Shown: piece after piece, positions 2,177-64,000 of the stretch
Layout: each line of letters opens with the position of its first letter
Position numbering within the stretch: the stretch's first letter is position 1
Program-made: the position numbers and the translations under genes
NCBI GenBank assembly: GCA_017886765.1
Contig: JAGHJI010000062.1
Coordinates: forward strand, 1 to 64,000
Direction of reading: 5' to 3'
Source: Eubacterium sp.
GTDB taxonomy: Bacteria; Bacillota; Clostridia; Oscillospirales; Acutalibacteraceae
DNA length: 64,000 bases
The notes under the pieces: model-generated
Databases searched by the model: none
Seen by the model: the letters and a program-made list of their open reading frames with translations, nothing else
Told to the model about the DNA's origin: nothing

Positions 2177-3520
2177 TTATTCTGTTTCACTTTCCTGCGC
2201 CTCTATATCGGCGGAACTCATATTATAGATATAATCTGTAAGCATCTGCTTGTTTTCATCCGTATTGATACTTATAACACTGTTTCCACTGATCGTGGCG
2301 TAGCTCCACGTACCCTCAAAAGGAACTTTTGTCTGATGCATATCTCCCGTAAGACAGATACCTGCCTGCAAGACAAGCGCCATCAGCTGACCTTTGCTCA
2401 TATCCGTTTCAATATACGGCGCTGAACTAAACGCCATTCTGTAAAGTCTGAAGATATTCGCGCTTTTGGCGCTGCTTAAAATGGCACTCATTACTGTACG
2501 CTGTCTTTCCGTTCTGGCAAAGTCTGTGTCAATTTTCCTGATACGGCAGTAAGCAAGCGCCTGTTCTCCGGACAGTTTGTATTTGCCCGACTCCAGCGTT
2601 ACGTTACCATAGCGGCTGGGATGATTCGTGACCTCGTCAGCTTCCTCCTGCGTAACATCCACTTCAACGCCGCCCAGACTGTCAACAAGCACCTTGAACA
2701 TTTCAAAGTCCGCCACTGCGTAGCCGTCAATTTTTATACCGAAATTGTATTCTATTGCGTCCACCACGCCTTGGTATCCGCCGGAAGAACAGGCGGCATT
2801 CAGCCTTTGCTCATAACCGAGCGTGGGGATATACACCCAGGTATCTCTCAAAAACGATACCATTTTTATACAGCGGTGGCGCATATCAAGGGATACCAGC
2901 ATCATCGTGTCGGAACGGGTCTGTTCGGCGTCCTCGTCAGACCTGGCGTCAACGCCCAAAATCAAAATATTTTTAACCATGGAGCTGCTTTCAAGGGTGT
3001 CGGCGGACACATATGTGTTTTCTTCCTTATCATTATAATTTATTCTGCCCATAACAACGCCAACCGAGCCCACAAGAATCAGAACAAGCACCAATACGAA
3101 CGCCAGTATACCCTTGCCCACGGACATTCGGGGCAGTTTCCCTTTTCCGGCGGTTTTTTTGTCTTTTTTAGAGGAATGGGGGGAAGTTCTTTTTGACTTG
3201 TCCGGTTTTCTCCTGTTATTTTGTCCCGTATTTATCGGACGTTCAAAGTCACCGGCGCTCTCACTTCTGAAACGCTGAGGCGGCTGAATATCGTTTGTCT
3301 GCTGCGTCTGCGGCGATGTGTCACAGGGGTTGATACCCTGCTGGTCATACGGATTATACTGATTATCCTGCAACACATCTTTTTTTCTCTGCCTGTTATT
3401 AAAATCCAGATCCACCGGATTAAAGCCGTAATAGTTTTCATCCTCCGGCACAGTTCTGTCCAAATCGTTATTGCGGTTTCTTTTTTCGGGATCAAAGCCT
3501 TTGTTTTCAAAACGCGGCAT
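2177..3520 (-). CDS. LytR-CpsA-Psr (LCP) family protein
   Basis: LCP enzymes transfer undecaprenyl-linked glycopolymers (wall teichoic acid, capsule) onto peptidoglycan outside the membrane. The 447-aa product has a long polar, basic cytoplasmic N-terminus, one membrane segment at about residues 137-158 and an LCP domain from about 184. The conserved Arg/Asp stations are present: RSDTMMLVS, FLRDTWV, and the C-terminal CRIRKIDTDFARTERQR. The start is set by GGAGG seven bases upstream. It is monocistronic and divergent from rnpB. This is one of three intact LCP genes in the window; the polymer it handles cannot be read from sequence. Confidence 0.93.
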   Translation of the reverse strand: MPRFENKGFDPEKRNRNNDLDRTVPEDENYYGFNPVDLDFNNRQRKKDVLQDNQYNPYDQQGINPCDTSPQTQQTNDIQPPQRFRSESAGDFERPINTGQNNRRKPDKSKRTSPHSSKKDKKTAGKGKLPRMSVGKGILAFVLVLVLILVGSVGVVMGRINYNDKEENTYVSADTLESSSMVKNILILGVDARSDEDAEQTRSDTMMLVSLDMRHRCIKMVSFLRDTWVYIPTLGYEQRLNAACSSGGYQGVVDAIEYNFGIKIDGYAVADFEMFKVLVDSLGGVEVDVTQEEADEVTNHPSRYGNVTLESGKYKLSGEQALAYCRIRKIDTDFARTERQRTVMSAILSSAKSANIFRLYRMAFSSAPYIETDMSKGQLMALVLQAGICLTGDMHQTKVPFEGTWSYATISGNSVISINTDENKQMLTDYIYNMSSADIEAQESETE

Positions 3521-18190: not shown

Positions 18191-18496
18191 TTATGTAAAT
18201 AAATTTTTTGCGTAATCTGTTTTTCCGTTGATTATGGCGTGAATCTCCACTGTATCTTCTATAACTGTATAAAAGACCAAATATTCATCAACCACCATTT
18301 TCCGAAACTGCAGATCGGAAACATCGCAGGGATAAATTTCACACATCTGCGGTTGTTCCTGTAAGAGAGAAATTGTTTTTATGATTTTGTCATATTTTTT
18401 CATCGCGGTGCTTGGATAAAAAAGGGACAGATAGTCAACCATATTTTCCAAATCTCTTTTTGCAGAGGGGAGCATAATGATTTTATACTTTTTCAT
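18191..18496 (-). CDS. RelE/ParE-type toxin
   Basis: A 101-aa protein with the RelE/ParE fold pattern. It begins YKIIMLPSAKRDLENMVDYLS and ends with the paired strands RKMVVDEYLVFYTVIEDTVEIHAIING. Members either cleave mRNA on the ribosome or poison gyrase; which is not readable here. It overlaps the upstream Phd/YefM antitoxin by 14 bases, the standard arrangement of a type II toxin-antitoxin operon. The frame is intact. Confidence 0.9.
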   Translation of the reverse strand: MKKYKIIMLPSAKRDLENMVDYLSLFYPSTAMKKYDKIIKTISLLQEQPQMCEIYPCDVSDLQFRKMVVDEYLVFYTVIEDTVEIHAIINGKTDYAKNLFT

Positions 18497-18755
18497 TCAG
18501 CTTTTTCCTCATTTCTTCTGCGGTTTCAAAAAAATCAAATCGTTTTTTTGTTTCTTTCGCCTCAGCGGCAGAAGCTTTAAGCCTTTTAGCGATAAAACTG
18601 TCCTCCATGATTTTGCCGTACTGTTCCATACTCATAACGACCATATCGCCATATCCGTTTTTCGTTAAAAAAACAGGCTCCTGATTTTCGTGAACTTCCT
18701 TTGAAATATCAGAAAAATTATTTCTCAAGTCCGTTACAGGTCTTATTTTAAACAT
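18483..18755 (-). CDS. Phd/YefM-type antitoxin
   Basis: A 90-aa antitoxin with an N-terminal DNA-binding Phd domain (IRPVTDLRNNFSDISKEV, then EPVFLTKNGYGDMVVMSMEQY) and a C-terminal toxin-neutralising tail rich in charged residues. The ribosome site GGAGATGATTTT precedes the ATG. The promoter contains an operator dyad, consistent with autoregulation by the antitoxin-toxin complex. Confidence 0.92.
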   Translation of the reverse strand: MFKIRPVTDLRNNFSDISKEVHENQEPVFLTKNGYGDMVVMSMEQYGKIMEDSFIAKRLKASAAEAKETKKRFDFFETAEEMRKKLNEKV

Positions 18756-19142: not shown

Positions 19143-19619
19143 TTATGGATTGATTTTTTTAATTTCCTGTCCGCTGATTTTTTTTAAAAACGGCATTATA
19201 TCCGTACCGTACACCAAACCGTCAGGAAACAAATCCAGCAGAGGCTCCAGAATGAAGCGCCTTTCCCTGTATCTGGGGTGAGGAAGGATAAGATTTTCGC
19301 TGTTTATTTTTAAATCTCCGGCAAAAATTATATCCACATCTATGATTCTGGGACCGAAGCGTATCTTTCTCTCCCTGCCGAAACCCGCCTCTATGCCCAG
19401 GCAGGCTCCCAGCATTTCATGGGGATCAAACGCCGACTCGACTTTCAGCAGCATGTTGTAAAAATTCTGCTGGTCGCTGTAACCCACAGGCTCCGTTTCA
19501 TAAAGAGCGGAACGCTCCCTGACCTGTGTGCCGGGCAGCAAGCCCACCGCTTCGATACATCTGTCCATATTCTCTTTTCTGTCGCCTATATTGGTACCGA
19601 TACTGATTATGTATTCCAT
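19143..19619 (-). CDS. folK: HPPK, 2-amino-4-hydroxy-6-hydroxymethyldihydropteridine diphosphokinase
   Basis: Transfers pyrophosphate from ATP to 6-hydroxymethyl-dihydropterin in folate synthesis. The length is 158 aa. Signatures are SIGTNIGDRKENM, ALYETEPVG, RIRFGPRIIDVDI (here RKIRFGPRIIDVDII) and LPHPRYRERRFILEPL. It is the last gene of the folate operon, 29 bases after folB, and ends at a strong terminator. Confidence 0.97.
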   Translation of the reverse strand: MEYIISIGTNIGDRKENMDRCIEAVGLLPGTQVRERSALYETEPVGYSDQQNFYNMLLKVESAFDPHEMLGACLGIEAGFGRERKIRFGPRIIDVDIIFAGDLKINSENLILPHPRYRERRFILEPLLDLFPDGLVYGTDIMPFLKKISGQEIKKINP

Positions 19620-19648: not shown

Positions 19649-20008
19649 TTATCTCTCCCGTGAAATCCGAACGCCTACCCAGCCGAAATCCGCCTTTACA
19701 GGCGCCTCAGGCTTTTTCAGCGTTATATCCACGGAAAATACCTCAGGATATTCTTCAAGGATGGCGTCAGCGGTGATTTGAGCCACTTTTTCAAGCAGGT
19801 CATATTTTTCCCCTGTGACGACTCGTTTTACCGTTTTTATCACCTTTGCGTAGCTTACGGTATCGTTTACGTCATCGGAATAGCACGCTTTTGTCATATT
19901 GACACTTAAATCTATGTCAAAAACAAAATGCTGACCGTCGCGCTTTTCCTCGGGATTTACACCGTGATAAGCAAATATTTTTAAGTCCCTGATTAAGATT
20001 TTATCCAT
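19649..20008 (-). CDS. folB: dihydroneopterin aldolase
   Basis: Converts 7,8-dihydroneopterin to 6-hydroxymethyl-dihydropterin and glycolaldehyde. The length is 119 aa, with IRDLKIFAYHGVNPEEKRDGQHFVFDIDL at the start and the C-terminal strand VFSVDITLKKPEAPVKADFGWVGV. It starts 2 bases after the UPF0145 gene and feeds folK. Confidence 0.96.
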   Translation of the reverse strand: MDKILIRDLKIFAYHGVNPEEKRDGQHFVFDIDLSVNMTKACYSDDVNDTVSYAKVIKTVKRVVTGEKYDLLEKVAQITADAILEEYPEVFSVDITLKKPEAPVKADFGWVGVRISRER

Positions 20009-20010: not shown

Positions 20011-20334
20011 TTATTTATCTCTGACTACAACGGCTGTGCCTGTGGCGGACACCATAAGCATATTGCCCTGACCCAGCACCTCATAATCAATATCAACACC
20101 CACAACAGCGTTGGCGCCCATCTGGGACGCTCTGGACTGCATTTCCGCAAGGGCGTTTTCACGGGCTTTTGTCAGTTCCTCTTCATAGCCGCTGGAACGG
20201 CCGCCGACAAAGTTTCTGATAGAAGCGCCGAAATCCTTAATGAAATTTATACCGCTCACAACCTCGCCGGTGACGATTCCTTTGTATTCGGTGATGACTC
20301 CGTTTTCAAGTGTGTTTGTTGTTGCACAAATCAT
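20011..20334 (-). CDS. UPF0145 (YbjQ-like) protein
   Basis: A 107-aa protein of the YbjQ/UPF0145 family, a small pentameric beta-rich fold once described as putative heavy-metal binding. The diagnostic segments are [24 protein letters not shown] and [25 protein letters not shown]. It overlaps folP by 4 bases and is 2 bases from folB, so it is cotranscribed and translationally coupled inside the folate operon. The family role is unknown; the position hints at a link with pterin or folate metabolism. Confidence 0.93.
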
Positions 20335-21137
20335 AATTCAACATATCCTTTCATATTTTGGGCCATTAAAATGCCCTGTTTTTCATTTTTTACATCGTGG
20401 ATACGGATGATATCCGCTCCGCCGAAGATTGCCGCCGTATCCGCCGCAATATTGCCGTATGTCCTTTCCTTAGGTTCCGGCTGACTGCTACCCTGCCCGA
20501 TAACCCTTTTTCTTGAAGTACCCAGCAGGAGCGGATAACCGCTGATTTTATATTTTTCAACATTCGCCAGAAGGCGCATATTTTCATCATAATCCTTATC
20601 AAAACCGATACCCATATCAAAGCAGATCTGAGATTGATTTATGCCGAGGGCAATGCACTCTTCCGCTGATTTTTCAAAAAACTTTTTTACATCATCCGGC
20701 GTACCGTGGCCGTTATGCATGATGATCCAGCCCGCACCGGTCTTTCTGATAATTTCCGCCATTTTGCCGGAAAGAATACCGCTGACGTCATTGATTATAT
20801 CCGCGCCCGATCTAAGCGCTTTTTCGGCAACAGAAGGATAATAAGTGTCCACGGATACCGGAACTGTCAAAACGCCGTTTAACGCTGTCAGAACAGGCTC
20901 CAGACGGCTCCATTCCTCCTTATCGGATACCGGCGTATGTCCCGGACGGGTAGACTGGCCGCCTATATCTATCATATCCGCGCCGTCTTTCTCAAGCGCG
21001 AGGGCACGGCTGACGGCATCCTCGGTAAAAAAATAATCTCCTCCGTCTGAAAAAGAATCGGGGGTGACGTTCAAAATCCCCATAATCAGGATTTTTTTGC
21101 CGTATTCAATGTTTTTATCTCTGCATTTCCAAATCAT
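20331..21137 (-). CDS. folP: dihydropteroate synthase
   Basis: Joins 6-hydroxymethyl-dihydropterin pyrophosphate with p-aminobenzoate; the sulfonamide target. A 268-aa TIM barrel with [34 protein letters not shown] and [11 protein letters not shown]. It lies 19 bases after folE and overlaps the next gene by 4 bases. Confidence 0.97.
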
Positions 21138-21156: not shown

Positions 21157-21714
21157 TTATTTGACAAGCAATGCCAGCACTTCGGCTCTTGTTCTGGCAT
21201 CGGTTCTCATTCTTCCTCTGAGGGCAGAGGTCTGGGTCTTTGCACCCGGGGCTTTCGCTCCCCGTATCGTCATGCACATATGCTCCGCCTCCATAATGAC
21301 CGCAACGCCCTGGGGATGAAGATTGTCATTGAGAAAATCTGCGATATCGTGGGTAAGCCTTTCCTGCACCTGGGGCTTTTTCGCGAAATTGTCAACGATG
21401 CGCGCCAGCTTTGAAAGGCCGATGATCTCATTGTCGCTGGGAATATAGGCGATATGCGCCTTGCCGACAAAGGGCAGGAGATGATGCTCGCACATGGATG
21501 AAAAGGGAATATCCCTTACAATAACCATTTCATCATTTGATTTTTCATCAAAAAATTTAAGATGCTTTTTCGGGTCTTCCGTAAGTCCGGCAAACATTTC
21601 CTCATACATATTCGCCACTCTTTTCGGCGTTTCCGCCAGACCGGGTCTGTCGGGGTCTTCACCAACGGCAATCAGAATTTCCCTTACAGCGTTCATGATT
21701 CTCTCTTTATCCAT
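21157..21714 (-). CDS. folE: GTP cyclohydrolase I
   Basis: The first enzyme of folate synthesis: GTP to 7,8-dihydroneopterin triphosphate and formate. The length is 185 aa. Zn2+ ligands are visible in [21 protein letters not shown] and later [14 protein letters not shown]. It is the first folate gene of the operon, 25 bases after the degenerate LCP-like gene. Confidence 0.97.
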
Positions 21715-21739: not shown

Positions 21740-22660
21740 TTATTTCGTAAAATATCCTTTTACTTTCTGCAGACTTTCATCCGTTATGGTATTTCCGTCG
21801 TATTCACAAACGGCGCTGTATGCGCCCACTCCCGTCTGCTCATCCGCTAGGACGGTCAAACCGTCGCCCGCAAGGGAAAAATCCCTGACGGTAATATTGG
21901 TATTTGCCGCCGCTACAAAAAGATTGAACAGTGTTTCACTGTTTTCAAGATTTTCACTGTTCATCTGCTGCAAAAGACTGTTTAAAACCAGATCGTTGGC
22001 GGCGGAAATATTATTCTCCTGGTCAACATAATAGCGGATGAGATTGATATACTCACTGCCGTCTATCTCCTGTTCCCCGGCTTTCATTCTGACCGAATAG
22101 CTGACCTTTTCACCTTCACTTCTGAATCTTATTTCAGAGGCGATTGGATAATTAAATACACCAAGCTCGTCGAAAAAATCGGAAAAATCACTGCTTTGCA
22201 TATCAATATAATAATCAAAATCCGTCCCCATCAGGCTTTCAACCGCCGTCTGAACATTCTGGACACCGGACTGACTGTAAATATCCGCAAGGCTGTTCCC
22301 GTCGCAGAGCGTATCGGCTTTCAATACGGTTGTTTTATATGAAATATTATCCAGATCCACCTGAACCAGAATGGTGAAAAGCAGGTTTTCATCGCTGTTT
22401 ACAAGAACGATAAAATTAGTCTTTCCGCTGACCTGGGGCAAAGGTTCCTCCTGTGTGTCGGAAACATTTGTTAACTCCAGATTATCGGGCGCAAAAAACT
22501 TTTTCGCGCTGAAATCATATCTGACGGCTAAAACAGTCACAAAAACAACGGTAAACACAATAATGAGAACCAGCGCAGTAATCAGAATTTTCTGCTCGGC
22601 AGATCTTTTTTTATTCGTTTTTGAAAAATAAATATCACCGCGGTTTTTAAAAATCCTCAT
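21740..22660 (-). CDS. degenerate LCP-like membrane protein
   Basis: A 306-aa protein with a basic N-terminus, one membrane helix at about 25-46 and an extracellular domain. The domain follows the LCP layout: FIVLVNSDENLLFTILVQVD aligns with the IL-GVD...SDTIMLVSID block, then a KLNAAYSYGG-like segment, then the MGTDFDYYIDMQSSDFSDFFDELGVF block. All conserved catalytic Arg are missing: RSD reads NLL, PRDT reads KADT, and the terminal ARTERQR block is absent. It is therefore probably a non-catalytic relative or a divergent protein. It is divergent from dnaA and heads the folate operon. Confidence 0.7.
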   Translation of the reverse strand: MRIFKNRGDIYFSKTNKKRSAEQKILITALVLIIVFTVVFVTVLAVRYDFSAKKFFAPDNLELTNVSDTQEEPLPQVSGKTNFIVLVNSDENLLFTILVQVDLDNISYKTTVLKADTLCDGNSLADIYSQSGVQNVQTAVESLMGTDFDYYIDMQSSDFSDFFDELGVFNYPIASEIRFRSEGEKVSYSVRMKAGEQEIDGSEYINLIRYYVDQENNISAANDLVLNSLLQQMNSENLENSETLFNLFVAAANTNITVRDFSLAGDGLTVLADEQTGVGAYSAVCEYDGNTITDESLQKVKGYFTK

Positions 22661-22769
22661 ACTGCACCTCCCTGAAAATCAATTATACAATACGGCTGTT
22701 TATTTTACAAGTATTATTCTGTACTAATATATTAAATATATATATTGATATATATTTCTTAATTAAATA

Positions 22770-22798
22770 TTGATTTAATAATTAAAAACTGATATAAT
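22770..22798 (+). promoter_or_regulatory. dnaA promoter
   Basis: TTGATT, 17 bases, TATAAT, 57 bases before the dnaA ATG. The 195-base gap from 22661 is very AT-rich; no consensus DnaA box (TTATCCACA) was seen in it. Confidence 0.75.
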
Positions 22799-22855
22799 GG
22801 ATTTTATACAATAGATTATTACGCTTTTTTATATAAAAAACTGAAGGAGGTACAT

Positions 22856-24208
22856 ATGGATTCGTTTAATGACGTTTGGCAGGCTGTCCTGGATTATATA
22901 AAATCAAAAGTTAACGAAACCGCTTATAACCTATGGATAAAGATCGTAAAATTTGACGGTTTCAATAATTCGACCGTTACTCTGCGTTTTCCAAAACCAA
23001 TGCATCTGGAGATTGTAACATCTCAGTACGGAGAGCTTTTTGAAGAAGCTTTTGAGAATGTGCTGGGTTTTAAAGTAAATATTTCATATGTCTGCGACGA
23101 CGTTTTTGAAAACGAGAAAGAAAGCGGCAATACCACATATCAGGATAAGCATCTGGAGGATTACAGAAATTCACAGTTTACCTTTGAGAATTTTATTGTG
23201 GGTCCCAGCAACAGATTTGCCTATGCCGCCGCTAAAGCCGTGGCTTCTGACCCGGGGTCAAGACTTTCCTCCGGTTCAAGCTTCAGCAATTATAATCCGC
23301 TGTTCATATACGGTAATTCCGGTCTGGGAAAGACGCACATACTAAATGCAATCTGTCACGAGGTTGAAAAGAATTTTCCGGATATGAATATCATGTACGT
23401 CCGGGCAGAACAGTTTGCCAATGAATTTTACCAGGCGCTGCAGAACAAGACGATTGATGAGTTCCACAATAAATACAGAAATAATATTGACGTTTTTCTG
23501 ATTGACGATATACAGTTTATTTCAGGCAAGACATCAACGGAAGAGGAATTTTTCCATACCTTTGACACACTGGTATACGGCGGAAAACAGGTCGTTCTTA
23601 CCTCCGACAGACCGCCGAGAGATATTCAGTCCCTGACGGACAGACTGAAATCAAGATTTGAAGATGGTCTGCTGGCTGATATCCAGCCCCCTGAATTTGA
23701 AACAAGATGCGAAATAATAAAGCGCAAAGCAAAGCTTCTTAATTTTGAAATTTCAGATCAGGTAGTCAGCTATATTGCTGAAAAAATAAAATCCAACATT
23801 CGTCAGCTTGAAGGCGTTACAAAAAAACTCTATGCCCTTTGTGATATAAACGATCACACTCCGACGATTGCCTTGGCCCAAAGCGTTATAAAAGTCATTA
23901 TGGAAGATACCCAGCCCCTGCCCGTCACAATTCAGAAAATTGTGGACGAGGTCAGCAGGACAACGGGAATTTCCGTTGAGGATATCTACAGCAAGGTACA
24001 GAAAGCCAATATATCCCACGCGAGAAAAATCACTTTCTATGTTATCAGAAAAGTGACAAATATGAGTTATGAAGATATAGGCGAGGAATTTGACAAACAC
24101 CATTCAACGGTCATCTACAATATCGACCAGATTGAAAAGGAAATGGAAAAAAATTCAAAGCTGGCAAGACAAATAAACGATATTATCAGCAATGTAAAGA
24201 CGGAATAG
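22856..24208 (+). CDS. dnaA: chromosomal replication initiator DnaA
   Basis: An ATP-dependent initiator of 450 aa that melts oriC and loads helicase. Domain I (1-75) is typical; the linker domain II is short. The AAA+ domain carries Walker A GNSGLGKT (153-160), Walker B FLIDDIQFISGKTSTEEEFFHTF and the sensor/box VII region. In domain IV the DNA-binding signature, GGRDHTTV in E. coli and Bacillus, reads DKHHSTV (413-419): one residue shorter, with Arg to Lys and Asp to His at base-contact positions. The ribosome site GAAGGAGG precedes the ATG. It is followed by the repeat-rich oriC candidate and dnaN. Confidence 0.98.
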   Translation: MDSFNDVWQAVLDYIKSKVNETAYNLWIKIVKFDGFNNSTVTLRFPKPMHLEIVTSQYGELFEEAFENVLGFKVNISYVCDDVFENEKESGNTTYQDKHLEDYRNSQFTFENFIVGPSNRFAYAAAKAVASDPGSRLSSGSSFSNYNPLFIYGNSGLGKTHILNAICHEVEKNFPDMNIMYVRAEQFANEFYQALQNKTIDEFHNKYRNNIDVFLIDDIQFISGKTSTEEEFFHTFDTLVYGGKQVVLTSDRPPRDIQSLTDRLKSRFEDGLLADIQPPEFETRCEIIKRKAKLLNFEISDQVVSYIAEKIKSNIRQLEGVTKKLYALCDINDHTPTIALAQSVIKVIMEDTQPLPVTIQKIVDEVSRTTGISVEDIYSKVQKANISHARKITFYVIRKVTNMSYEDIGEEFDKHHSTVIYNIDQIEKEMEKNSKLARQINDIISNVKTE

Positions 24209-24443
24209 TAAAACAAATTTTTCAACATTTTTTTATTTTTCCGCAGATCATTTTTTAACAACGGCTGTTAAAAAAATTTTTTTCAACAACGTCAACATTT
24301 TTTCAACAATGAAAAATATAAAAAATGTTGTTCTGTTTTTCTTTTTAAACGGTAATTCTTAATCGTTTTTAACAATTTCAACACCATATATTACTACTAC
24401 TAAAAGCTAAATATTTCATAATAAATTGACGGAGGATAGATTT
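24209..24443 (+). other. oriC: candidate oriC (dnaA-dnaN gap with TTTTCAACA repeats)
   Basis: An extremely AT-rich gap with iterated 9-mers, all in + orientation: TTTTCAACA at 24219, 24280 and 24300; TTTTTAACA at 24252 and 24366; ATTTCAACA at 24375; ACGTCAACA at 24289. They are related to, but not, TTATCCACA. After the last one comes TACTACTACTA (24392-24402), which looks like DnaA-trio triplets (3'-GAT-5' on the other strand). A 10-bp dyad TTTTTTAACA / TGTTAAAAAA (24251-24275) may also act as the dnaA terminator. The origin role is inferred. Confidence 0.65.
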
Positions 24444-25556
24444 ATGAAATTCACCTGCAATACAAAAGAATTAAGCGAAGCCTGTTCAAATGTAATGAGA
24501 GCGGTAAGCACAAAAGTAACGATTCCTACCATTGAAGGAATACTGATCGAGTGCGGGTCCGATACATTAAGCCTTACCGGATATGATTTTGAAGTCGGTA
24601 TAAATACCATATTACAGGCAAATGTAACAGAACCCGGAGCAATTGTAATCAATGCCAAGGTTTTAAGTGATATTATAAGAAAATTGCCTGACGGCAATGT
24701 TACCTTTGAGATAAGCGGCACGTCCGTTTCCATTATCAGCGGCGCTGCGCAGTATAATATTATGGGTATTGACGCGGAGGATTATCCCGAACTTCCGTCT
24801 GTTTCCGGCGGATATCCGCTGTTTTTGAATGAAGCCGTTTTGCAGGGAATGGTCGCCCAGACCCTCTTTGCCGTTGCAGATAACGAATCAGCAAAACCGG
24901 TACATACGGGACTTAAATTTGAACTGACGCTCAATCAATTAAGACTGATAGGCGTTGACGGATACCGTCTTGCAATCCGAACGGAAACAGTTCAGTATGA
25001 CGGTGAGGATATCAGCTTTATCGTACCCAAGAAAACAATCAGAGAACTTATTAAACTGATGGGAACGGAAAGCGATAAAAATATTTCCATCAGTGTAGGA
25101 AAAAGACATATTGTATTTGATGTGGAAAATTACAGTGTGATAAGCCGCCTGCTTGACGGAGATTTTCTTGATTATAACGCAGCAATTCCAAAAACAGCGT
25201 CCACCACGGTTTTGATCAATACGGATGACGCAATTGAATGTATTGAAAGAACGCTTCCCGTTATAGAAAATGATAAAAAGAATCCTATCAGATGTTTATT
25301 TGACAATGATGAGATGCGTGTTTCCACCGTATCCAGTCTGGGAAGAGTTGTGGATTATACGCATGCCAATGTGAGCGGTGACAGGGTTGAAATCGGCTTC
25401 AATTCAAAATTTATTCTGGATGCTCTGCACGCAGCAGATACAGACCAGGTAAAGATCGAGCTGAACAGCGCCGTAAGTCCTGCGAAGGTTATGCCGATTA
25501 ATGATGACAGCTTTTTGTTCTTAGTTCTTCCCATGAGGCTGAAAAATGAAAATTAA
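24444..25556 (+). CDS. dnaN: DNA polymerase III beta clamp
   Basis: Sliding clamp of 370 aa that tethers Pol III and other DNA enzymes. It has three repeated clamp domains, beginning MKFTCNTKELSEACSNVMRAVS and ending with the family's C-terminal MPINDDSFLFLVLPMRL. The start is moved from 24426 to ATG 24444, which has GGAGG nine bases upstream. It overlaps the next gene by 11 bases. Confidence 0.98.
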   Translation: MKFTCNTKELSEACSNVMRAVSTKVTIPTIEGILIECGSDTLSLTGYDFEVGINTILQANVTEPGAIVINAKVLSDIIRKLPDGNVTFEISGTSVSIISGAAQYNIMGIDAEDYPELPSVSGGYPLFLNEAVLQGMVAQTLFAVADNESAKPVHTGLKFELTLNQLRLIGVDGYRLAIRTETVQYDGEDISFIVPKKTIRELIKLMGTESDKNISISVGKRHIVFDVENYSVISRLLDGDFLDYNAAIPKTASTTVLINTDDAIECIERTLPVIENDKKNPIRCLFDNDEMRVSTVSSLGRVVDYTHANVSGDRVEIGFNSKFILDALHAADTDQVKIELNSAVSPAKVMPINDDSFLFLVLPMRLKNEN

Positions 25557-25794
25557 AGTAAAAGCCGCAAAGAGAAAAAACGAGGACGTATTTATTCAGA
25601 CAGAATTTATAAGACTCGACGCTTTTCTTAAATTTAAAGGAATTGCCGGGACCGGAGGGCAGGCAAAGGAATTTGTGCAAAACGGAATCGTAAAAGTAAA
25701 CGGCGAGATCTGTACTGCCAGGGGAAAGAAAATAAGAAACGGAGATACGGTTTCCATATTCAGTACGGATTATTGTATTAAAAATGAAAATTAA
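25546..25794 (+). CDS. yaaA: S4-domain RNA-binding protein YaaA/RlbA
   Basis: An 82-aa protein with a C-terminal S4 domain: FIRLDAFLKFKGIAGTGGQAKEFVQNGIVKVNGE, TARGKKIRNGD. It is the conserved small partner between dnaN and recF in Firmicutes; its role is thought to be RNA or ribosome binding. It overlaps both neighbours by 11 bases, implying translational coupling. Confidence 0.93.
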   Translation: MKIKVKAAKRKNEDVFIQTEFIRLDAFLKFKGIAGTGGQAKEFVQNGIVKVNGEICTARGKKIRNGDTVSIFSTDYCIKNEN

Positions 25795-26872
25795 TTCAAT
25801 CAGTATAGAAAATTACAGAAATATTGAAAGTCTGAATCTGGAATTTGACGACGTGAACATCATTTACGGCGAAAATGCCCAGGGAAAAACAAATCTGATA
25901 GAAGCAATATATCTTTTCACCGGAAGCAAAAGTTTCAGAGGAATAAAGGATAAAGAGCTTGTTAAATTCGGCAGCGATTTTTCCAGACTTAAGATTGATT
26001 TTGAAAATGAAAACAGAAAACAGAATGCTCAAATCGTAATAGATAAAAAGAGAACAGCCACATTAAACGGTATCAAAAAAAAATCCGCCGCGGCGCTGGG
26101 AGAAGAACTGAAAGCGGTAATTTTCTCGCCTGTTCATTTGTCTATGGTCAAGGACGGACCGGCGGAAAGGCGTAAATTTATGGATAACGCCCTTTGTCAG
26201 CTTAAATATAATTACCGCAGTGTTTTAAAGGAATACAACCGCGCCCTTGCCCAGAGAAATATGCTGCTTAAGGACATTTCTAAAAACAGCTCGCTGACGG
26301 ATATGCTTTATATCTGGGATAACAATCTGGCAAAAAGCGGCGCAAAAATTATTTTTCAGCGTAATAAATATGTTGAAGCGCTCCTTCCCTACGCAAAAGA
26401 GGTTTTTGACGGACTTTCAAAGGGTAAGGAAAATATGGATTTGATTCTAAAAGGTCCTTTTGACTATAAAGATTTGAGTGTAAAAGAGATTGAAAAACAG
26501 CTTCTGCTCACTTTTGAAAACACCAGAAGCGCAGATTTTATGAACAGAATCACAACGGCGGGTCCCCACCGTGATGATATGGAAATACTTATCAACGAAA
26601 AAAGCGCGCGGACTTTCGGTTCCCAGGGACAGCAGCGTTCATGTGTTCTGGCGCTGAAACTTGCCGAGGCGAGCCTGCTCAAGGAGATGACCGAAAATGA
26701 GCCGCTGGCTCTTTTGGACGATGTGATGAGCGAGCTTGACTTATCAAGACAGGATTATATTTTGAATCATATTAAAAATTGGCAGGTATTTATTACCTGC
26801 TGTGACGCGGATACGGTTTTACGTCTGAAGAAAGGAAAGACTTTTCATATGGAAAACGGAGGACTTATCTGA
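25784..26872 (+). CDS. recF: DNA repair ATPase RecF
   Basis: An SMC-like ATPase of 362 aa that helps load RecA at gaps and in replication restart. Walker A GENAQGKTNLIEAIY lies near residue 30; the ABC signature (FGSQGQQRS) and Walker B (PLALLDDVMSELD) are near the C-terminus. It overlaps yaaA by 11 bases and remB by 1 base. Confidence 0.97.
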   Translation: MKINSISIENYRNIESLNLEFDDVNIIYGENAQGKTNLIEAIYLFTGSKSFRGIKDKELVKFGSDFSRLKIDFENENRKQNAQIVIDKKRTATLNGIKKKSAAALGEELKAVIFSPVHLSMVKDGPAERRKFMDNALCQLKYNYRSVLKEYNRALAQRNMLLKDISKNSSLTDMLYIWDNNLAKSGAKIIFQRNKYVEALLPYAKEVFDGLSKGKENMDLILKGPFDYKDLSVKEIEKQLLLTFENTRSADFMNRITTAGPHRDDMEILINEKSARTFGSQGQQRSCVLALKLAEASLLKEMTENEPLALLDDVMSELDLSRQDYILNHIKNWQVFITCCDADTVLRLKKGKTFHMENGGLI

Positions 26873-27105
26873 TGTATCTGTACCTTGGCGGAGATACTGC
26901 CGTAAAAACAGACAGAATCATAGGCATTTTTGATATGGATACGTCCACCGTGAATAAAGCCACAAGGGATTATCTCTCAAAGGCGGAAAAAGAAAAAAGA
27001 ATTGTCTATGTAAACTATGAACTGCCGAAAAGTTTTATAGTTTGTGAAGATAAGATATATGTGTGTCCGCTGAATACGGCGACACTTTTAAAGCGCAGTA
27101 AATAA
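26872..27105 (+). CDS. remB: RemB-like DUF370 protein
   Basis: A 77-aa protein of the DUF370 family (extracellular matrix regulatory protein B, formerly YaaB), beginning MYLYLGGDTAVKTDRIIGIFDMDTSTV. Its relative RemA binds DNA as a ring and activates biofilm genes; the role of RemB itself is less clear. Its ATG overlaps the recF stop (TGATG). It is 12 bases upstream of gyrB, as in Bacillus. Confidence 0.92.
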   Translation: MYLYLGGDTAVKTDRIIGIFDMDTSTVNKATRDYLSKAEKEKRIVYVNYELPKSFIVCEDKIYVCPLNTATLLKRSK

Positions 27106-27117
27106 GGAGTTTTATAA

Positions 27118-29076
<1,959 letters not shown>

Positions 29077-29086
29077 GAAGTGAGCC

Positions 29087-29581
29087 ATGAAATTAACTTT
29101 TAAAATGACGCCTGAGGAATATTATCTCGGCTGGAAATACAGAATGAAAAAATGGTCAAAATTTGATGTGAATAAGATTGTTTTGATTCTATCTTTGGTT
29201 TTGGTTATACTTTTTATTATTTTGAGAGTGGATATATATTTCATCATCTGTATTTTGCTGCTTATGGCAGGGATAATGCTCTCTCTTTCAGCACAGAAAA
29301 AGTCAGTCATGAGAAGCTATGCGTATTCGCCGGTAAATAACGGCGAGCAGACGGTAAGGATTTATGACGAGGGGATCGAGTTTTTTAACAGCTATGAAAA
29401 AATGTTTACCCCCTGGCAGAGCGTCTACGCCGTTCAGGAAACGCCGCAGTATATAAAAATACTGTCCGGATACAGTGCCGGAATGGCGGTTATCAGTAAA
29501 AGCCGCTATGCTTCAGCTGAGCTTGACGGCATTATCGGCGCCATAAAATCCCATATAAAAGTTGAGGAGGGTAAAAAATAA
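29087..29581 (+). CDS. YcxB-like membrane protein 1
   Basis: A 164-aa protein with a short N-terminal segment, two adjacent transmembrane helices (about residues 29-65) and a soluble C-terminal domain: GEQTVRIYDEGIEFFNSYEKMFTPWQSVYAV, the YcxB-like pattern. The function of this family is unknown. It lies 10 bases after gyrB and overlaps the following homologue by 1 base, so it is part of the gyrase transcript. Confidence 0.75.
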   Translation: MKLTFKMTPEEYYLGWKYRMKKWSKFDVNKIVLILSLVLVILFIILRVDIYFIICILLLMAGIMLSLSAQKKSVMRSYAYSPVNNGEQTVRIYDEGIEFFNSYEKMFTPWQSVYAVQETPQYIKILSGYSAGMAVISKSRYASAELDGIIGAIKSHIKVEEGKK

Positions 29582-30102
29582 TGACGGAATTTACCTATTC
29601 TCTCACCGATGAGGATTATATCTGTTTTGAGAAATTCAAATTAAAAAGAAACAAAACCGTTTTTATCGTATATATCATATCTCTTTTTTATGTGGCGATG
29701 AGCGTTTACGACGCAATCGTTTATAAAGCATATGATCTGATATTCATCACCATAGGTTTTGTTATTCTAATCTGCGCGGCGACGGCTTACGTCTATTTTG
29801 CCGCCCCGAAAAAGCGGGTCAGAAAAATGCTCGCGGCTGACAGCACCTATACGGGGGAAAACAGCATCAAGATAGGTGAAAAGGAAATTGAAATAAAAAA
29901 TTTACCCCGGGAAAATCAGCGGGGCATGGTGGCGGTCTATCCGTATTCGGTCATGTCCGTAATCTATGAGACAGAGGAAAGCTATTATTTTCTCATAGGT
30001 ATGACCGTGAAAATTCTTCCCAAAAGGGTGATTCCGCCGGCCCTTTCGGATTATGTGAAAAAAACGCTCAGCAAAAACAGAAACTATATTTATTTAAAAT
30101 AA
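29581..30102 (+). CDS. YcxB-like membrane protein 2
   Basis: A 173-aa protein with the same architecture as the preceding one: polar start ([22 protein letters not shown]), two helices, then a soluble domain with [17 protein letters not shown] and a hydrophobic end strand. The two appear to be an ancient tandem duplication, though identity is low. Its ATG overlaps the previous stop (TAATG). It sits between gyrB and gyrA, which are usually adjacent. Confidence 0.7.
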
Positions 30103-30133
30103 AAGATTCCCCTTGGAATCGGAGGAAGACAGA

Positions 30134-32635
30134 ATGGACAATAATGAAATTCGATATGACAATCAGAAAATCGTGGATGTTGAAATCAGCTCGGAGATAA
30201 GAAAGGCTTTCCTTGACTACTCCATGAGCGTTATCGTACAGCGCGCGCTGCCGGATGTTCGCGACGGACTCAAGCCGGTACACAGAAGAATCCTCTACGC
30301 AATGTACGATAATAATCTGTATCCCACAAATCCTTACCGCAAGTGCGCCACCACTGTCGGTGAAGTGCTGGGTCACTATCACCCCCACGGCGACGCGTCC
30401 GTTTATGACGCTATGGTAAGGCTTGCTCAGCCGTTTTCCATGCGGCATACTCTGGTTGACGGTCACGGCAACTTCGGCTCAATAGACGGCGACCCGCCTG
30501 CGGCGTACCGTTATACTGAATCACGCCTGAGCAAAACAGCAATGAAAATGCTTGAGGATATCAAGAAAGATACGGTGGATTTTGCTCCGAACTTTGATGA
30601 TACCACAAAAGAGCCCACGGTACTGCCGTCGCGTTTTCCGAATCTTCTGGTAAACGGCTCATCAGGTATTGCCGTAGGTATGGCGACAAATATTCCTCCT
30701 CACAATATGAGAGAGGTCGTTGAGGGAATGTGTTTTCTGATTGACCATCCTGACGCTTCTCTGGAAGAAATCATGGAATTTATAAAAGGTCCGGACTTCC
30801 CCACCGGCGGTATCATTATGGGCGCCAAGGGAATCAGAGAGGCATACGCCACCGGCAGAGGAAAGATTTATGTCAGAGCCAAGGCAGAGATCGTTGAGAC
30901 CAGAGGAGACCGCTTTAAAATCGTTGTAAGTGAAATTCCCTACAGTGTAAACAAAGCAAGACTGATTACAAGGATTGCCGATCTGGTAAAGGAAAAACGC
31001 CTTGAGGGCGTTGCGGACGTTCAGGATTATTCCGACCGCAGAGGCATGCATATTGAGATTGTAGTCAAGAGAGACGCCAATGCCCAGGTGGTTCTTAACA
31101 ATCTTTATAAAATGACGGATATGCAGGTCACCTTCGGCGCAATTATGCTGGCGCTGGACGACGGCGTTCCGAAGGTACTTACCTTAAAGGAAATTCTGGA
31201 GAAATATATTACTTTCCAGAGACAGATCGTTACCAGGAGAACGCAGTTCGACCTAAAAAAAGCGCAGGACAGAGCTCATATTCTGGAGGGCCTTGCCAGA
31301 GCGATAGATATAGTTGACGACGTCATTGCCACTATCCGTGCCTGCAAGGGCGGACAGGCTGAGGCAAAGCAGGCCATCATGGATAAATTTGATTTTGATG
31401 AGCCGCAGGCGGCGGCGATTGTCGCATACCGTCTCGGTCAGCTTGCCGGACTTGAGATTGAAAAGATTTTGAACGAGTTGGAGGAGCTCCACGATAAAAT
31501 TGCGGATTTTCTTGACATTCTTTCTCATGAACAGAGAATTTCCGACATAATTAAGGCAGAATCCAGAGAAATCGCGGAAAAATTCGGAGACGAGAGAAGA
31601 ACGGAGATATCCGCCTTCAGCGGTGATGTGGACGACGAGGATCTTATTCCGGTTGAGGAATGCATCCTTACACTGACGGAAAAAGGATATATGAAGCGTC
31701 AGACCGTGGATACATACAAGGCGCAGAACCGAGGCGGCCGCGGCATTCTCGGTATGACAAGGCGCGAGGAGGACGTGGCAAAAACGATGTTCTCCTGCTC
31801 CACCCATGATTATATCCTTATCTTTACGAACAAGGGAAAGGTGTTTAAGCTCAAGGGCTATGAAATTCCGGAGGCTTCACGTACCAGCAAAGGTATGAAC
31901 GTAGTGAATATTCTTCCGCTTGAAAACGGAGAGCAGATCAGCGCGATGGTCAAGGTTCCGCAGGAGGAGGAAAGAACGTATCTCTGTATGGTTACAAGAA
32001 ACGGAATTATCAAAAGGACCTCTCTTGACCAGTATAAGCACATACGCAAGACCGGAATCATCGCAATCAATCTTGACGAGGACGACGAGCTTTCCTGGGC
32101 AGATATTACCGACGGCAAGAGAAATCTTATTGTTGCGACCCATGACGGTATGAGTATCTGTTTTAAGGAGAATGACGCCAGACTTATAGGCAGGACCGCA
32201 AGGGGCGTCAAGGCAATACAGCTTGACGACGGCGACTATGTTGTTGGCTTCGCGGTGGAGAGAGAAGGCTATACCCTTCTCACCGTTTCCGAAACGGGAT
32301 ACGGCAGAAAGAGTGAATTCAGTGATTACCGTGTTCAGTCAAGAGCAGGCAAAGGACTGATTAACTACCGTACCGGTCAGTACGGAAAAGTTGCAATGAT
32401 CGCTCCCGTTAACGATGATAACGATGTTATTATGATTTCTTCGGACGGCATTATCATACGTACCCATGCCGACCAGATCTCAACTTTCCAGAGACCGTCA
32501 AAGGGTGTTAAGGTGATGAAGGTCAATGACGGCGAAAAAATCGCCACCCTGTCCATTGTTGACAGGCTTGAGGAAGAGGAGCCGGAAGAAGAGAACGGTT
32601 TGCCAACCGAGCAGAGTGATGAGGTACGTGAATAA
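30134..32635 (+). CDS. gyrA: DNA gyrase subunit A
   Basis: Breakage-reunion subunit, 833 aa. The active Tyr is in AAYRYTE (Tyr127); the quinolone region reads [17 protein letters not shown]. Aligned with E. coli GDSAVYD, position 83 is Ala (Ala88 here) with Ser one residue on, the same GDAS arrangement as in mycobacteria. The GyrA box is QNRGGRG, and beta-pinwheel repeats follow. The track start (TTG 30113) is rejected for ATG 30134, eight bases after GGAGG. Confidence 0.97.
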
Positions 32636-32765: not shown

Positions 32766-34382
32766 TTGGAGAAAGAGTCATATAGCATAGATGATATCCT
32801 CTCAGAAGTAAAAAAACGCCGGGAAGAGCAGGAAAGAGCCCTGAAAAAGGAAGTCTCAAACAAAGAGGGAAAAGGGGCGGACTCTCCAAAACCTGTTGCC
32901 GAAAAAACTGCGGTTACAAAGGAAGAACTTAAGCCTCAGGCGCAGAAAAAGCAGAGCGCGCTGAAAATGAAAAACGAGGTCAACGATTCACAAGAAGAAA
33001 AGCCGGAATTTGATGAAGTTGTGATTTCAAAGGATAACGGTGAAACCGCACAAGAAGATGAGGAGATCCCTTCTGAAAAAGAAGAAGCGCCGGAAAAAGA
33101 GGAAAGCCGCGAACAGACAGCGGAAGCTTTGCCGGAGGAAAATGAAGGAATGGTAGACATCCTTCAGCTTTCAGAAGACGCCGCAGAGCAGATCATTCCT
33201 CAGGAGCAGCAGGACAAGCCGGTAAAGAAAAAATTCTTTAAGACAAAGAAAGGTAAAATCGTCAAAGCAATAATTATCATCCTTGTTATTCTTATTGTGG
33301 CGGCGGGAGTATACGCGGCAATTTATATTAATAATATGCTAAATGATGTGGCCGATGATGACAGCGAGCCGTATCAGGCGGTGGAATATTACGACGGAAT
33401 GGATTTCCTTCAGGAAGATTTTCCGATGATTGAGGAACAGTCGGCGTATGATGTTTACAGCTATAAGGAATATCTTAAATACTGGTATCAGAATGGCGAC
33501 CCGGTAAGGTCATCCCACGTAATGAATATTCTTCTGATCGGTGAGGATACAAGAGATGAAGAGATCAGCGACACGTCAAGAGCGGATTCTGCCATAATTG
33601 TCAGCATCAATATTGATTCGGGCAATATTTATATGACCTCTATTTTAAGAGACCTTTATGTTTACTATGAAGTAAACGGCGAGGGCTATTACGGAAAGAT
33701 CAACGAGGCTGCTTCCAACGGTGGTATGAATACCTATATCAATACCATAGAGAGGTATTACAAGGTTTCCATTGATAATTACGCGGTTGTCAATTTCGCC
33801 AGTTTCCCGAAAATTATTGACGCTTTGGGAGGCGTTGAAGTTGCCCTTACTGACGCCGAGGTCTATGAGGTAAACAACCACCAAACACGATACGGCTATG
33901 TTACACTTCCCCAGGCGCAGTATGACGCTGAGGGAAATCCGCAAAAGGTTATGCTGACCGGTGAGCAGGCGCTGGCATATTGCAGAATAAGGAAGATTGA
34001 TTCTGACAACGCCAGAGCGGACAGACAGAAAACCGTACTCAGCGAGCTTTTCAGTATGATGAAGAGTTCGGGAACCTTGGATGCGGTCAAGGTCGTTAAC
34101 CAGCTTTCCCAGTATACAAAAACAGGCTATACGAAAAAGGAACTGATATCCATCGGAAATCTTGCCCTGAGGGACGGCTGGCTCAATTATAATATTCAGA
34201 CAACAAACGTGCCCTCCACGGAAAACAGCCAGGGCGGACAGTATTTCTCCGTCAGCTACAATAACTGGATCTGGCTTGCAGATATACCGAAGGACGCTTA
34301 TGACCTTCAGATGATGATATACGGAAAGTCAAATATTCAGCTCAGTGAAAACAGACCGGATTATATCGCAATGGGAAGATAA
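32766..34382 (+). CDS. LCP family protein with long acidic N-terminus
   Basis: An LCP-type glycopolymer ligase of 538 aa. Residues 1-160 are a charged, Glu/Lys-rich cytoplasmic tail of low complexity, then one membrane helix (165-188) and the LCP domain from about 253, with RADSAIIVSIN, SILRDLYV, GGVEVALTDAE and CRIRKIDSDNARADRQK. The start is TTG at 32766 with GAGGAG nine bases upstream; no ATG is available nearby. A possible -10 (TATAAT at 32728) gives it a promoter after gyrA. It is the longest LCP protein in the window. Confidence 0.92.
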   Translation: MEKESYSIDDILSEVKKRREEQERALKKEVSNKEGKGADSPKPVAEKTAVTKEELKPQAQKKQSALKMKNEVNDSQEEKPEFDEVVISKDNGETAQEDEEIPSEKEEAPEKEESREQTAEALPEENEGMVDILQLSEDAAEQIIPQEQQDKPVKKKFFKTKKGKIVKAIIIILVILIVAAGVYAAIYINNMLNDVADDDSEPYQAVEYYDGMDFLQEDFPMIEEQSAYDVYSYKEYLKYWYQNGDPVRSSHVMNILLIGEDTRDEEISDTSRADSAIIVSINIDSGNIYMTSILRDLYVYYEVNGEGYYGKINEAASNGGMNTYINTIERYYKVSIDNYAVVNFASFPKIIDALGGVEVALTDAEVYEVNNHQTRYGYVTLPQAQYDAEGNPQKVMLTGEQALAYCRIRKIDSDNARADRQKTVLSELFSMMKSSGTLDAVKVVNQLSQYTKTGYTKKELISIGNLALRDGWLNYNIQTTNVPSTENSQGGQYFSVSYNNWIWLADIPKDAYDLQMMIYGKSNIQLSENRPDYIAMGR

Positions 34383-38300: not shown

Positions 38301-38548
38301 AAAGTATAGTGAAGAAGGCGCTTATATTTCTTATAAGAACCTATCAGATGACCATCAGTCCCAGATTTTCCCACGGCAGCTGCAGATATACCCCCACCTG
38401 TTCCCAGTATGCCATTGAGGCAATTGAAATACACGGTGTTATAAAAGGCAGTCTGATGGCGGCTTGGCGGATTTTAAGGTGCAATCCCTTTTCTAAGGGC
38501 GGCTGGGATCCCGTTCCCCCAAGGAAAAATAAAGAGGATGACGAATGA
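38297..38548 (+). CDS. yidD: membrane protein insertion efficiency factor YidD
   Basis: An 83-aa protein: [31 protein letters not shown], with the family's three Cys, and GGWDPVP at the C-terminal side. It assists YidC-dependent membrane insertion. The start is TTG within TTGA, overlapping the rnpA stop; its own stop overlaps yidC (ATGA). Confidence 0.96.
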
Positions 38549-39564
38549 ACAGTATTTTACTTTTTTCAAGCACCGCTTCAAGCGCCGTGTCTGAAGGTAT
38601 TGCGATATTTAAACCTCTCTATTGGCTGTTCGGTAAATGTATGGGCTTCCTTTTGGAACTGTTGGGCAACCAATATTTCCTGGCAATCGTTATATTTACC
38701 ATCGTTACACGTCTTTTGCTTTTGCCGCTGAATGTCAGGCAGCAAAAAACAATGGCGAGAACGACAAGACTTCAGCCTAAAATACAGAAAATTCAGAATA
38801 AATATCCGGACCCTAAAGACAGAGCAAAAATGAATCAGGAAATACAGGACCTTTATTCAAGAGAAGGTCATAACCCCATGCAGATGGGCTGCGGACCTAT
38901 GCTTTTCCAGCTTGTTTTCCTGATGGGTATTATCGGTATTATCTATTACCCTCTCGTTTACGTATTGGGTATGAGCGCGATTAACGATAATTCCCAGGCG
39001 ATTTTGGATACGATCTTGCCTATATACCGGGATCTGATCGGTAACGAAGACGCGAATATAACCTATTTCCAGCTAAATATTCTGGAAAATTTTGAAGCTT
39101 ACAGGGACGCGCTGGTGACAGGTTTCCCGAAAATCTTTACGAACGAAATGTGCGATGCGATAGTCACGTACCGTGAGGGAATGAATCTGTTTGGTATTGA
39201 TATGACCGCGTTCCCCCACTGGAGAGACGGAATCATTATGATATTCCCAATCCTCTGTCTGGTAACGTCTCTCGCGTCAAGCGTTATTTCAACAATTATT
39301 CAAAAGAAAAACAATCCCGCAGCGGGTCAGCAGATGGCATCCATGGTGGCGATGATGCTGATTATGCCTTTCTTCTCCTTTTATATTTCATTTAAGGTTC
39401 CGGCGGCTGTAGGATTTTACTGGATCATTTCCAATCTGGTTGCCATTGCGCAGCAGATATTTATATTTAAACAGTATCCGCCGAGAAAGACACAGGCAAG
39501 ACTGATGATTGAAAATACAATCGAACGCCGTTCTCGTGAGGAAAATGTGAAGAAAATCAAATAA
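38545..39564 (+). CDS. yidC: membrane protein insertase YidC/Oxa1
   Basis: Inserts and folds membrane proteins. The length is 339 aa, with five hydrophobic segments and the conserved stretches [29 protein letters not shown] and [11 protein letters not shown]. No clear lipobox Cys follows the first helix, although many Gram-positive YidC proteins are lipoproteins. A loop of about 80 residues between the second and third helices is longer than in Bacillus. Confidence 0.95.
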
Positions 39565-39579
39565 TTATCGGAGGATTAT

Positions 39580-40518: not shown

Positions 40519-40537
40519 AAAAGGGTGACAAACCCTG

Positions 40538-40567
40538 AAAAAGGTGGGCACTCGTGTCCGCCTTTTT
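40538..40567 (+). terminator. rpmH-jag operon terminator
   Basis: AAAAAGGTGGGCAC / GTGTCCGCCTTTTT with G-T pairs and a minimal loop, followed by GTTTT. Confidence 0.85.
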
Positions 40568-40570
40568 GTT

Positions 40571-40599
40571 TTGCAAAAGATATTTATATATAATATAAT
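40571..40599 (+). promoter_or_regulatory. mnmE promoter
   Basis: TTGCAA, 17 bases, TATAAT (a second overlapping TATAAT lies at 40589). GAAAGGAG precedes the mnmE ATG. Confidence 0.75.
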
Positions 40600-40631
40600 A
40601 GGTATAGGCATTCGCAGAAAGGAGTATTTTC

Positions 40632-41996: not shown

Positions 41997-42005
41997 GGTG
42001 TGGTT

Positions 42006-44578: not shown

Positions 44579-44601
44579 ACTTAAATATTCATGTCGAAGA
44601 T

Positions 44602-44635
44602 AAAGGATTTCTCACTACGAGAAATCCTTTTTTTC
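44602..44635 (+). terminator. mnmE-mnmG-rsmG terminator
   Basis: AAAGGATTTCTC / GAGAAATCCTTT with loop ACTAC, followed by TTTTT. Confidence 0.93.
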
Positions 44636-44677
44636 TGTGGAAAAATATGATATAGTATAGACAAGGAGATGAGGTGA

Positions 44678-45499: not shown

Positions 45500-45543
45500 A
45501 ACGGGAAACCGTTTTAACATATTCTCCTCTTTTCATCACGTGG

Positions 45544-45569
45544 AAAAAACGAGCGAAAGCTCGTTTTTT
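45544..45569 (+). terminator. noc terminator
   Basis: AAAAAACGAGC / GCTCGTTTTTT with tetraloop GAAA. A smaller hairpin, TTAAAACGG / CCGTTTTAA, overlaps the noc stop codon at 45496-45517. Confidence 0.9.
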
Positions 45570-46537: not shown

Positions 46538-46547
46538 GAGGTGAATT

Positions 46548-62817: not shown

Positions 62818-64000
62818 TTAGTCGATCTGTGTATAAAAAGTGTCAAGCACGGTCTGCATCAGCTTATCCTCGTCCGGATAAAACTCAGCGTAGACCACGT
62901 CTGCATATTCTGTATTGGTGCTTGCCTGCATTTCTCCCTCAAGGGTTATGGTTTCAAAATCCGTTATGTTTCTGGATATCAAAAGAGAAGCCAAATACGT
63001 TGCGTCTGAAAGAGAAATATTTGTAGTACTGTATTCCGATGCGGTGTTATAGAGCTCACTTACAATGCTGAAATCGTTTATAACCGCCGGAGCAAGCTGT
63101 GCCGCGAAGGCTCTGATATACTGCACCTGTCTTGCCGTTCTGTTAAGAGATGCGTCTATTGTGTCCATATCTCTTGTTCTGACATATGCCTCCGTTAAAT
63201 CGCCTACCAAATGTACGGTGTCGCCCTTTTTGATTCCCAAATCGTCAAAATCATACAGTGACTCCACAGTTACGCCGCCGATAGCGTCGTTAATGGGGGC
63301 AATGCCGTTCAAATCCAGCGCGAAATATTTGTTGATCGGAACACTATACAGAATACGGCTTAAAGAGGTCGTCACATTTGTGGCAGATGTGTCCGTTCCG
63401 TTTCCGTAAGCGTAGCTCAAGCAAAGCTGCATCGTTTCATTTCTCAGGAAAATATTGTTTTCTGAATAAAGGTCTACCTCAACCATTGTGTCACGAGGTA
63501 CGGCAATCGCCGTAACTTCTCCGGAGGAGGTGTCCACAGCCACAACGATATTGGCGTCAGCCTGACCGGCAGTTCCGGCAGTGGCGCCATCCGTATCGAG
63601 GTCACGTTTGTCCACGCCAATAAAGGCGATGGAAACAATGTCGTCATTATATACGTAATCGTGACCGTTATAAGATATTTTTTCCTCGTAGTCCGTCTGG
63701 GTCGTTACGTTGGTAAGATCACTTTTACCTTTATATTCCAGGAAAAGCACAGTGCCCACAACAGCAATAATCAGTATCAAAAGGATAGCCAAAAAAGCGA
63801 TTGCGATTTTCGCCGCGGTAGGGAGCTTCTTTTTGCTCTTGCTTTTTCCGGAATGGGATGAATGAGAACCGGAATGATGATGGTGATGACGAGAACTGCT
63901 TCGGTGATAATGCTTTTCACGCATTTTAAAGTCATCAGTGGAACGCATTTTGTTTTCATTTTTTGGATAAGCGGTCAAATTATCGCCGGCAGGATCTGCG
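62818..64000 (-). CDS. LCP family protein with His-rich N-terminus (5' end outside)
   Basis: An LCP glycopolymer ligase of at least 386 aa. The cytoplasmic segment is unusually His/Ser-rich (HYHRSSSRHHHHHSGSHSSH), followed by one membrane helix (AIAFLAILLILIIAVVGTVLF) and the LCP domain with VAVPRDTMVEV, RTRDMDTIDASLNRTARQ. The frame is open to base 64000 (ADPAGDNLTAYPK upstream of the track's TTG) and no start inside the window has a ribosome site, so the true start is probably outside. It is separated from the transketolase gene by 27 bases. Confidence 0.9.
   Translation of the reverse strand, partial: ADPAGDNLTAYPKNENKMRSTDDFKMREKHYHRSSSRHHHHHSGSHSSHSGKSKSKKKLPTAAKIAIAFLAILLILIIAVVGTVLFLEYKGKSDLTNVTTQTDYEEKISYNGHDYVYNDDIVSIAFIGVDKRDLDTDGATAGTAGQADANIVVAVDTSSGEVTAIAVPRDTMVEVDLYSENNIFLRNETMQLCLSYAYGNGTDTSATNVTTSLSRILYSVPINKYFALDLNGIAPINDAIGGVTVESLYDFDDLGIKKGDTVHLVGDLTEAYVRTRDMDTIDASLNRTARQVQYIRAFAAQLAPAVINDFSIVSELYNTASEYSTTNISLSDATYLASLLISRNITDFETITLEGEMQASTNTEYADVVYAEFYPDEDKLMQTVLDTFYTQID

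Follow-up and report, generated by a model that had tools for sequence, protein, structure and literature searches.

Between dnaA and a run of folate genes in a Eubacterium sp. genome lies a gene for a small membrane protein, here called LCPx, that resembles the LCP (LytR-CpsA-Psr) proteins, a family of enzymes that link sugar polymers to the cell wall of bacteria. The original prediction was that LCPx is a pseudoenzyme that has lost all catalytic arginines, perhaps a lipid-phosphate sensor or a scaffold for intact LCP proteins encoded nearby. The locus thus raises the question of whether an LCP fold has been kept here after the loss of its catalytic residues and, if so, for what role. The window analysed comprises 64,000 nucleotides (positions 1 to 64,000 of contig JAGHJI010000062.1, assembly GCA_017886765.1).

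Genomic position and fold of LCPx

As predicted, LCPx heads the folate genes and faces dnaA; it shares the direction of folE, folP, ybjQ, folB and folK, while dnaA points the other way:

22856..24208, plus strand: dnaA, divergent neighbour of LCPx, kept across the genus
22661..22855, no strand assigned: AT-rich gap of 195 bp that separates the divergent LCPx and dnaA genes
22682..22710, minus strand: promoter-like site TTGTAA-17-TATAAT directly upstream of LCPx (10/12, a consensus match only)
21740..22660, minus strand: LCPx, open reading frame of 306 amino acids, membrane-anchored
21157..21714, minus strand: folE (GTP cyclohydrolase I), 25 bp downstream of LCPx
20331..21137, minus strand: folP (dihydropteroate synthase), named from sequence
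20011..20334, minus strand: YbjQ family protein (ybjQ)
19649..20008, minus strand: folB, named from sequence
19143..19619, minus strand: folK, named from sequence

The LCPx reading frame starts with ATG, and a ribosome-binding site (AGGGAGG) lies ahead of it. The sign of the GC skew flips near the gap between LCPx and dnaA, as expected near a replication origin, and a scan of this gap for DnaA boxes (TTWTNCACA) returned zero sites. With gene names assigned by eye, dnaA-dnaN-recF-gyrB-gyrA occupy 22856-32635, with two small membrane proteins between gyrB and gyrA (29087-30102). Further along this strand, at 38545-47396, come yidC-jag-mnmE-mnmG-rsmG and par genes, which in many Firmicutes are located on the other side of dnaA. 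A small gene pair at 18191-18755 resembles, by eye, a RelE/ParE-type toxin and a Phd/RelB-type antitoxin.

LCPx is laid out as a cytosolic N-terminal tail, a membrane helix (residues 21-48) and an extracytoplasmic LCP-fold domain (residues ~80-305). The predicted model contains exactly one membrane helix, in agreement with the original reading, and the positively charged tail suggests that the domain faces outside. The tail carries one conserved element, in which no known motif was recognised:

22628..22651, minus strand: FKNRGDIY (residues 4-11), near-invariant cytosolic motif before the membrane helix

The Pfam model LytR_cpsA_psr (PF03816) matched LCPx with 34.1 bits (cut-off 24.6) and also matched 30 of 30 aligned orthologues, while the NCBIfam model TIGR00350 stayed under its cut-off (42.5 vs 62.3 bits). 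The AlphaFold model, for which a 30-row alignment served as input, has a mean pLDDT of 86.6 and consists of the membrane helix and a globular domain. At E<=0.001, 33 PDB structures matched this model and every one of them is an LCP protein, the best being 4OBM (E 1.1e-15). The presence of an LCP domain is thus borne out by the profile and by the structural matches, and a fold unrelated to LCP, the outcome named beforehand as counting against the prediction, did not appear. By profile and predicted fold, LCPx is a member of the LCP-fold family.

Residues at the active site

The canonical LCP transferases (TagT/TagU/TagV, Cps2A, S. aureus LcpA and A. oris LcpA) share with LCPx the membrane anchor, the LCP fold, the block order and the R362 position, and differ from it in having R267, R364, R374, Q378 and the Mg aspartates. 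In Cps2A, phosphate is contacted by R267, R362 and R374, with D371 and Q378 in supporting roles, and D234 and D246 hold Mg (PMC7831098). In A. oris LcpA, the substitutions R149A and R266A abolished function; R149 is equivalent to TagT R118 and R266 to TagT R227 (PMC6381275). TagT R118 and Cps2A R267 are both the Arg of the PRDT block, and R362 is the first Arg of YxRxR. The three intact LCPs noted earlier in the window were found, and the genome assembly has no LCP match beyond these and LCPx:

2177..3520, minus strand: intact LCP, catalytic residues present
32766..34382, plus strand: intact LCP, catalytic residues present
62818..63978, minus strand: intact LCP, catalytic Arg present

We compared these positions among 43 intact LCPs, 54 LCPx orthologues and 57 other short LCP-like proteins. 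R267, R364, R374 and Q378 were each present in 43/43 intact LCPs, and R362 in 42/43. In the LCPx orthologues, R362 was retained in 54/54, whereas R267 was found in 1/54, R364 in 0/54, R374 in 2/54 and Q378 in 2/54. The D234 position holds Asp in 21/54 orthologues (Ser in the LCPx of the window) and the D246 position in 0/54. Two sites of LCPx are of particular concern:

22034..22036, minus strand: codon of R209 (Cps2A R362), the single retained active-site Arg
22310..22321, minus strand: codons 114-117, K-A-D-T replacing PRDT, with A115 at the R267 equivalent

R209 was assigned to R362 because it stands in ungapped register from the conserved G195, 14 residues past it as in canonical LCPs, and because phmmer aligned it with Cps2A R362 and with the first Arg of TagV YARMR. 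In an HMM alignment it also paired with R326 of the intact LCP at 2177-3520. An assignment to R364, which appeared in some rows with a profile of intact LCPs only, needs an opened two-residue gap and was rejected.

The claim that LCPx lacks all catalytic arginines is therefore corrected to all but one: R267, R364 and R374 are lost, but R209 is kept in every orthologue. The reported absence of the PRDT block is likewise true only in part, as its Arg is missing (Arg in 1/54) but the Asp and Thr persist in the LCPx of the window (xxDT). Conservation of the missing Arg across orthologues, which had been proposed as a check, showed R267, R364 and R374 to be near-absent genus-wide. Q100, D102 and Y210, as well as R209, are invariant or nearly so. 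The original view of LCPx as a pseudoenzyme is supported by these data, since the gene is under purifying selection and its fold is kept in a genus that has dispensed with R267, R364, R374, Q378 and the Mg aspartates.

Conservation in the genus and short LCP-like proteins in the order

Of the 36 other genomes of the genus, 34 gave full-length LCPx orthologues with 37-70% identity. In one of the two negative genomes the dnaA match starts only at residue 41, which makes a contig break probable there; the other has no dnaA match. A second scan, whose set partly overlaps that of the 34 genomes, yielded 53 LCPx loci, the closest being that of 'Candidatus Eubacterium faecigallinarum' (78%). The invariance of FKNRGDIY in these 53 loci is biased because the motif served as the seed of the scan; the motif is conserved as well in the alignment of 30 rows, whose sequences were gathered without it as seed. 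The orthologue alignment has 19 invariant columns, and the dN/dS of LCPx against four relatives is 0.09-0.11, similar to folP and folK, with dS near saturation. LCPx is thus deeply conserved under purifying selection, and the best reading is that it has been inherited vertically.

To place LCPx in a wider context, we searched 295 genomes of the order and scanned 41 genomes of one family with Pfam. Most genomes have one short, weak-scoring LCP of ~300 aa, usually alongside intact LCPs; such a protein occurs in 34/41 genomes of the Pfam-scanned family and in 8/8 genomes examined in the window's own family. We collected 57 short LCP-like proteins without the PRDT Arg (R267), 25 of which lack all four Arg; members were picked as short and weak-scoring, so that these figures describe the class and are a biased sample of all LCPs. 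These 57 proteins, which belong to the Pfam family but have no separate name, are similar to LCPx in having ~300 aa, a single LCP domain, no PRDT Arg and usually one copy per genome. They differ from it in that their remaining residues vary and their neighbours are alr/ypsA or a transglutaminase-like gene. In seven genomes that are at least 90% complete (G103, G205, G246, G284, G331, G348 and G359), only the short form was above threshold.

In phylogenetic trees (unrooted, and without the very divergent L196 and L199-L203, whose residue assignments are unsure), the intact enzymes grouped together, apart from the short forms, and this split nearly held, with two changes, when the active-site columns were masked. 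These data are compatible with the short LCPs forming one branch of a single origin. LCPx is one of this wider group of short LCP-like proteins in the order, which on the best explanation parted from the enzymes long ago and is inherited vertically.

The genomic neighbourhoods of the short forms vary. In one other family, short LCP genes are near alr (13 loci) and ypsA (11 loci). In the 13 loci (L120-L123, L125, L131, L133, L175, L178, L181, L183, L187 and L189) alr is the upstream neighbour of the short LCP gene, in opposite orientation, and the two are often separated by a YpsA/SLOG gene. In three sister genera (G244, G300 and G321), a gene for a secreted transglutaminase-like protein (PF01841) directly follows the LCPx relative with a spacing of 0-17 bp:

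L116, 5841-6986: transglutaminase-like gene (PF01841)
L117, 5603-6745: transglutaminase-like gene (PF01841)
L119, 7089-8282: transglutaminase-like gene (PF01841)

The transglutaminase-like protein is a candidate functional partner of the LCPx relatives in these sister genera. The genome of the window has a distant homologue of it elsewhere (G000:C19:91501-92472). Neighbour clustering across lineages gave no single partner common to all short LCPs.

The closest structure to LCPx, 4OBM (EUBSIR_01389 of Eubacterium siraeum; TM 0.74 by target), is also its best single-sequence PDB match (E 2.5e-5). Both proteins have a short LCP domain that lacks the cluster of catalytic Arg, and they are 17% identical in the structural alignment. 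In 4OBM, the four conserved Arg are replaced and one Mg Asp is lost (PMC11337229). It reads YLTLPDYG at the site where LCPx keeps R209, and the 4OBM-like relatives sampled adjoin alr, whereas LCPx adjoins dnaA and folE. Several LCP entries in the PDB, including 4OBM ('putative transcription regulator'), are titled 'transcription regulator', which is an outdated annotation. In the open-access literature searched, PMC11337229 was the only text on 4OBM/EUBSIR_01389, and no paper paired LCP with pseudoenzyme or described such a class. Thus, an Arg-less LCP fold is already known as a single case; what is new here is a one-Arg variant conserved throughout a genus and independent of the folate genes, together with evidence for a widespread class of about one protein per genome, present in some genomes without a detectable intact LCP.

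Possible roles of LCPx

We consider it probable that LCPx is a vertically inherited, non-catalytic envelope protein with an LCP fold, perhaps a binder of polyprenyl phosphate or glycan. LCPx would then cross the membrane once, and its extracytoplasmic LCP domain would have given up phosphotransfer but may still bind an envelope ligand without turnover, either polyprenyl phosphate/pyrophosphate in the tunnel or a wall glycan. Its part in envelope synthesis might be that of a sensor, a buffer or an adaptor, and the cytosolic FKNRGDIY tail could be the surface that relays its ligand state. The lipid-phosphate sensor proposed originally is compatible with the invariant, phosphate-contacting R209. 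Crystals of the Cps2A R267A mutant retain lipid (PMC11337229), and binding therefore need not disappear along with R267. The ligand is suggested by homology and one Arg (R209); relatives of the 4OBM type, which lack even the Arg at the R362 position, argue against ligand binding.

It is also possible, though we doubt it, that LCPx is a ligand-free structural adaptor in which the LCP fold provides a protein-protein surface for intact LCPs or for another envelope complex. Three intact LCPs do coexist with LCPx in the genome, some of its invariant residues are at sites atypical of catalysis (the FKNRGDIY tail, Q100 and Y210), all four Arg are gone in 25/57 related short proteins, and the secreted transglutaminase-like protein that follows the LCPx relative in three sister genera is a candidate partner. 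However, an adaptor offers no evident reason for the invariance of the active-site R209 (54/54), and the seven near-complete genomes without a detectable intact LCP imply that the class can do without intact LCPs as partners. Scaffolding of intact LCPs, the other role suggested at the outset, therefore cannot be general and was rejected for the class as a whole; within the LCPx genus, where intact LCPs coexist, it is possible.

An unorthodox enzyme, which would catalyse another reaction on a phosphorylated lipid or glycan by means of R209 and non-canonical residues, appears improbable. Purifying selection and the invariant polar residues R209, Y210, Q100, D102 and N82 would fit such an activity, but against it stands the loss or poor conservation of the Mg aspartates, the PRDT Arg, R364, R374 and Q378, with Asp in only 21/54 orthologues at the D234 position and in 0/54 at the D246 position.

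A regulator linked to folate or replication is very improbable, although the gene neighbourhood at first points to it. The order dnaA, LCPx, folE, folP, folB, folK is kept in nearly all loci of the genus, and in the sister genera represented by G244, G300 and G272 the LCPx relative is also upstream of folE, there away from dnaA. However, no folE match turned up anywhere in G022 or G034, two genomes of 96-97% completeness in which LCPx nevertheless stands beside dnaA, so folate was rejected as the functional link; relatives in sister genera are located away from dnaA, and those of the other family near alr and ypsA. In the open-access literature searched, no paper joins LCP with dnaA and folate. 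The dnaA/folate neighbourhood looks like stable gene order, a matter of history and not of common function.

That LCPx is a decaying remnant of an LCP enzyme is hardly credible: the catalytic residues are lost, but the reading frames are full-length down to 37% identity, with 19 invariant columns and a dN/dS of ~0.1, and the presence of non-catalytic relatives in most of the related gut bacteria sampled indicates that LCPx is kept and working.

For the wider class, we offer a more tentative suggestion, which we regard as rather unlikely to hold in full: an ancient, vertically inherited non-catalytic LCP branch in the Clostridia of this order, with about one short protein per genome and in some genomes no LCP enzyme beside it, may serve as a receptor for polyprenyl phosphate or wall glycan and report lipid-carrier supply, with LCPx as a member that kept one phosphate-contacting Arg.

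LCP proteins have been studied as enzymes, and automatic annotation often labels them glycopolymer transferases or 'transcription regulators'. With a widespread set that has the fold but not the catalytic Arg, many of these labels are wrong. This set also gives direct access to the question of whether, in gut Clostridia, the LCP tunnel serves the envelope as a receptor without catalysis, and the genomes that have the non-catalytic form alone are ready-made tests.
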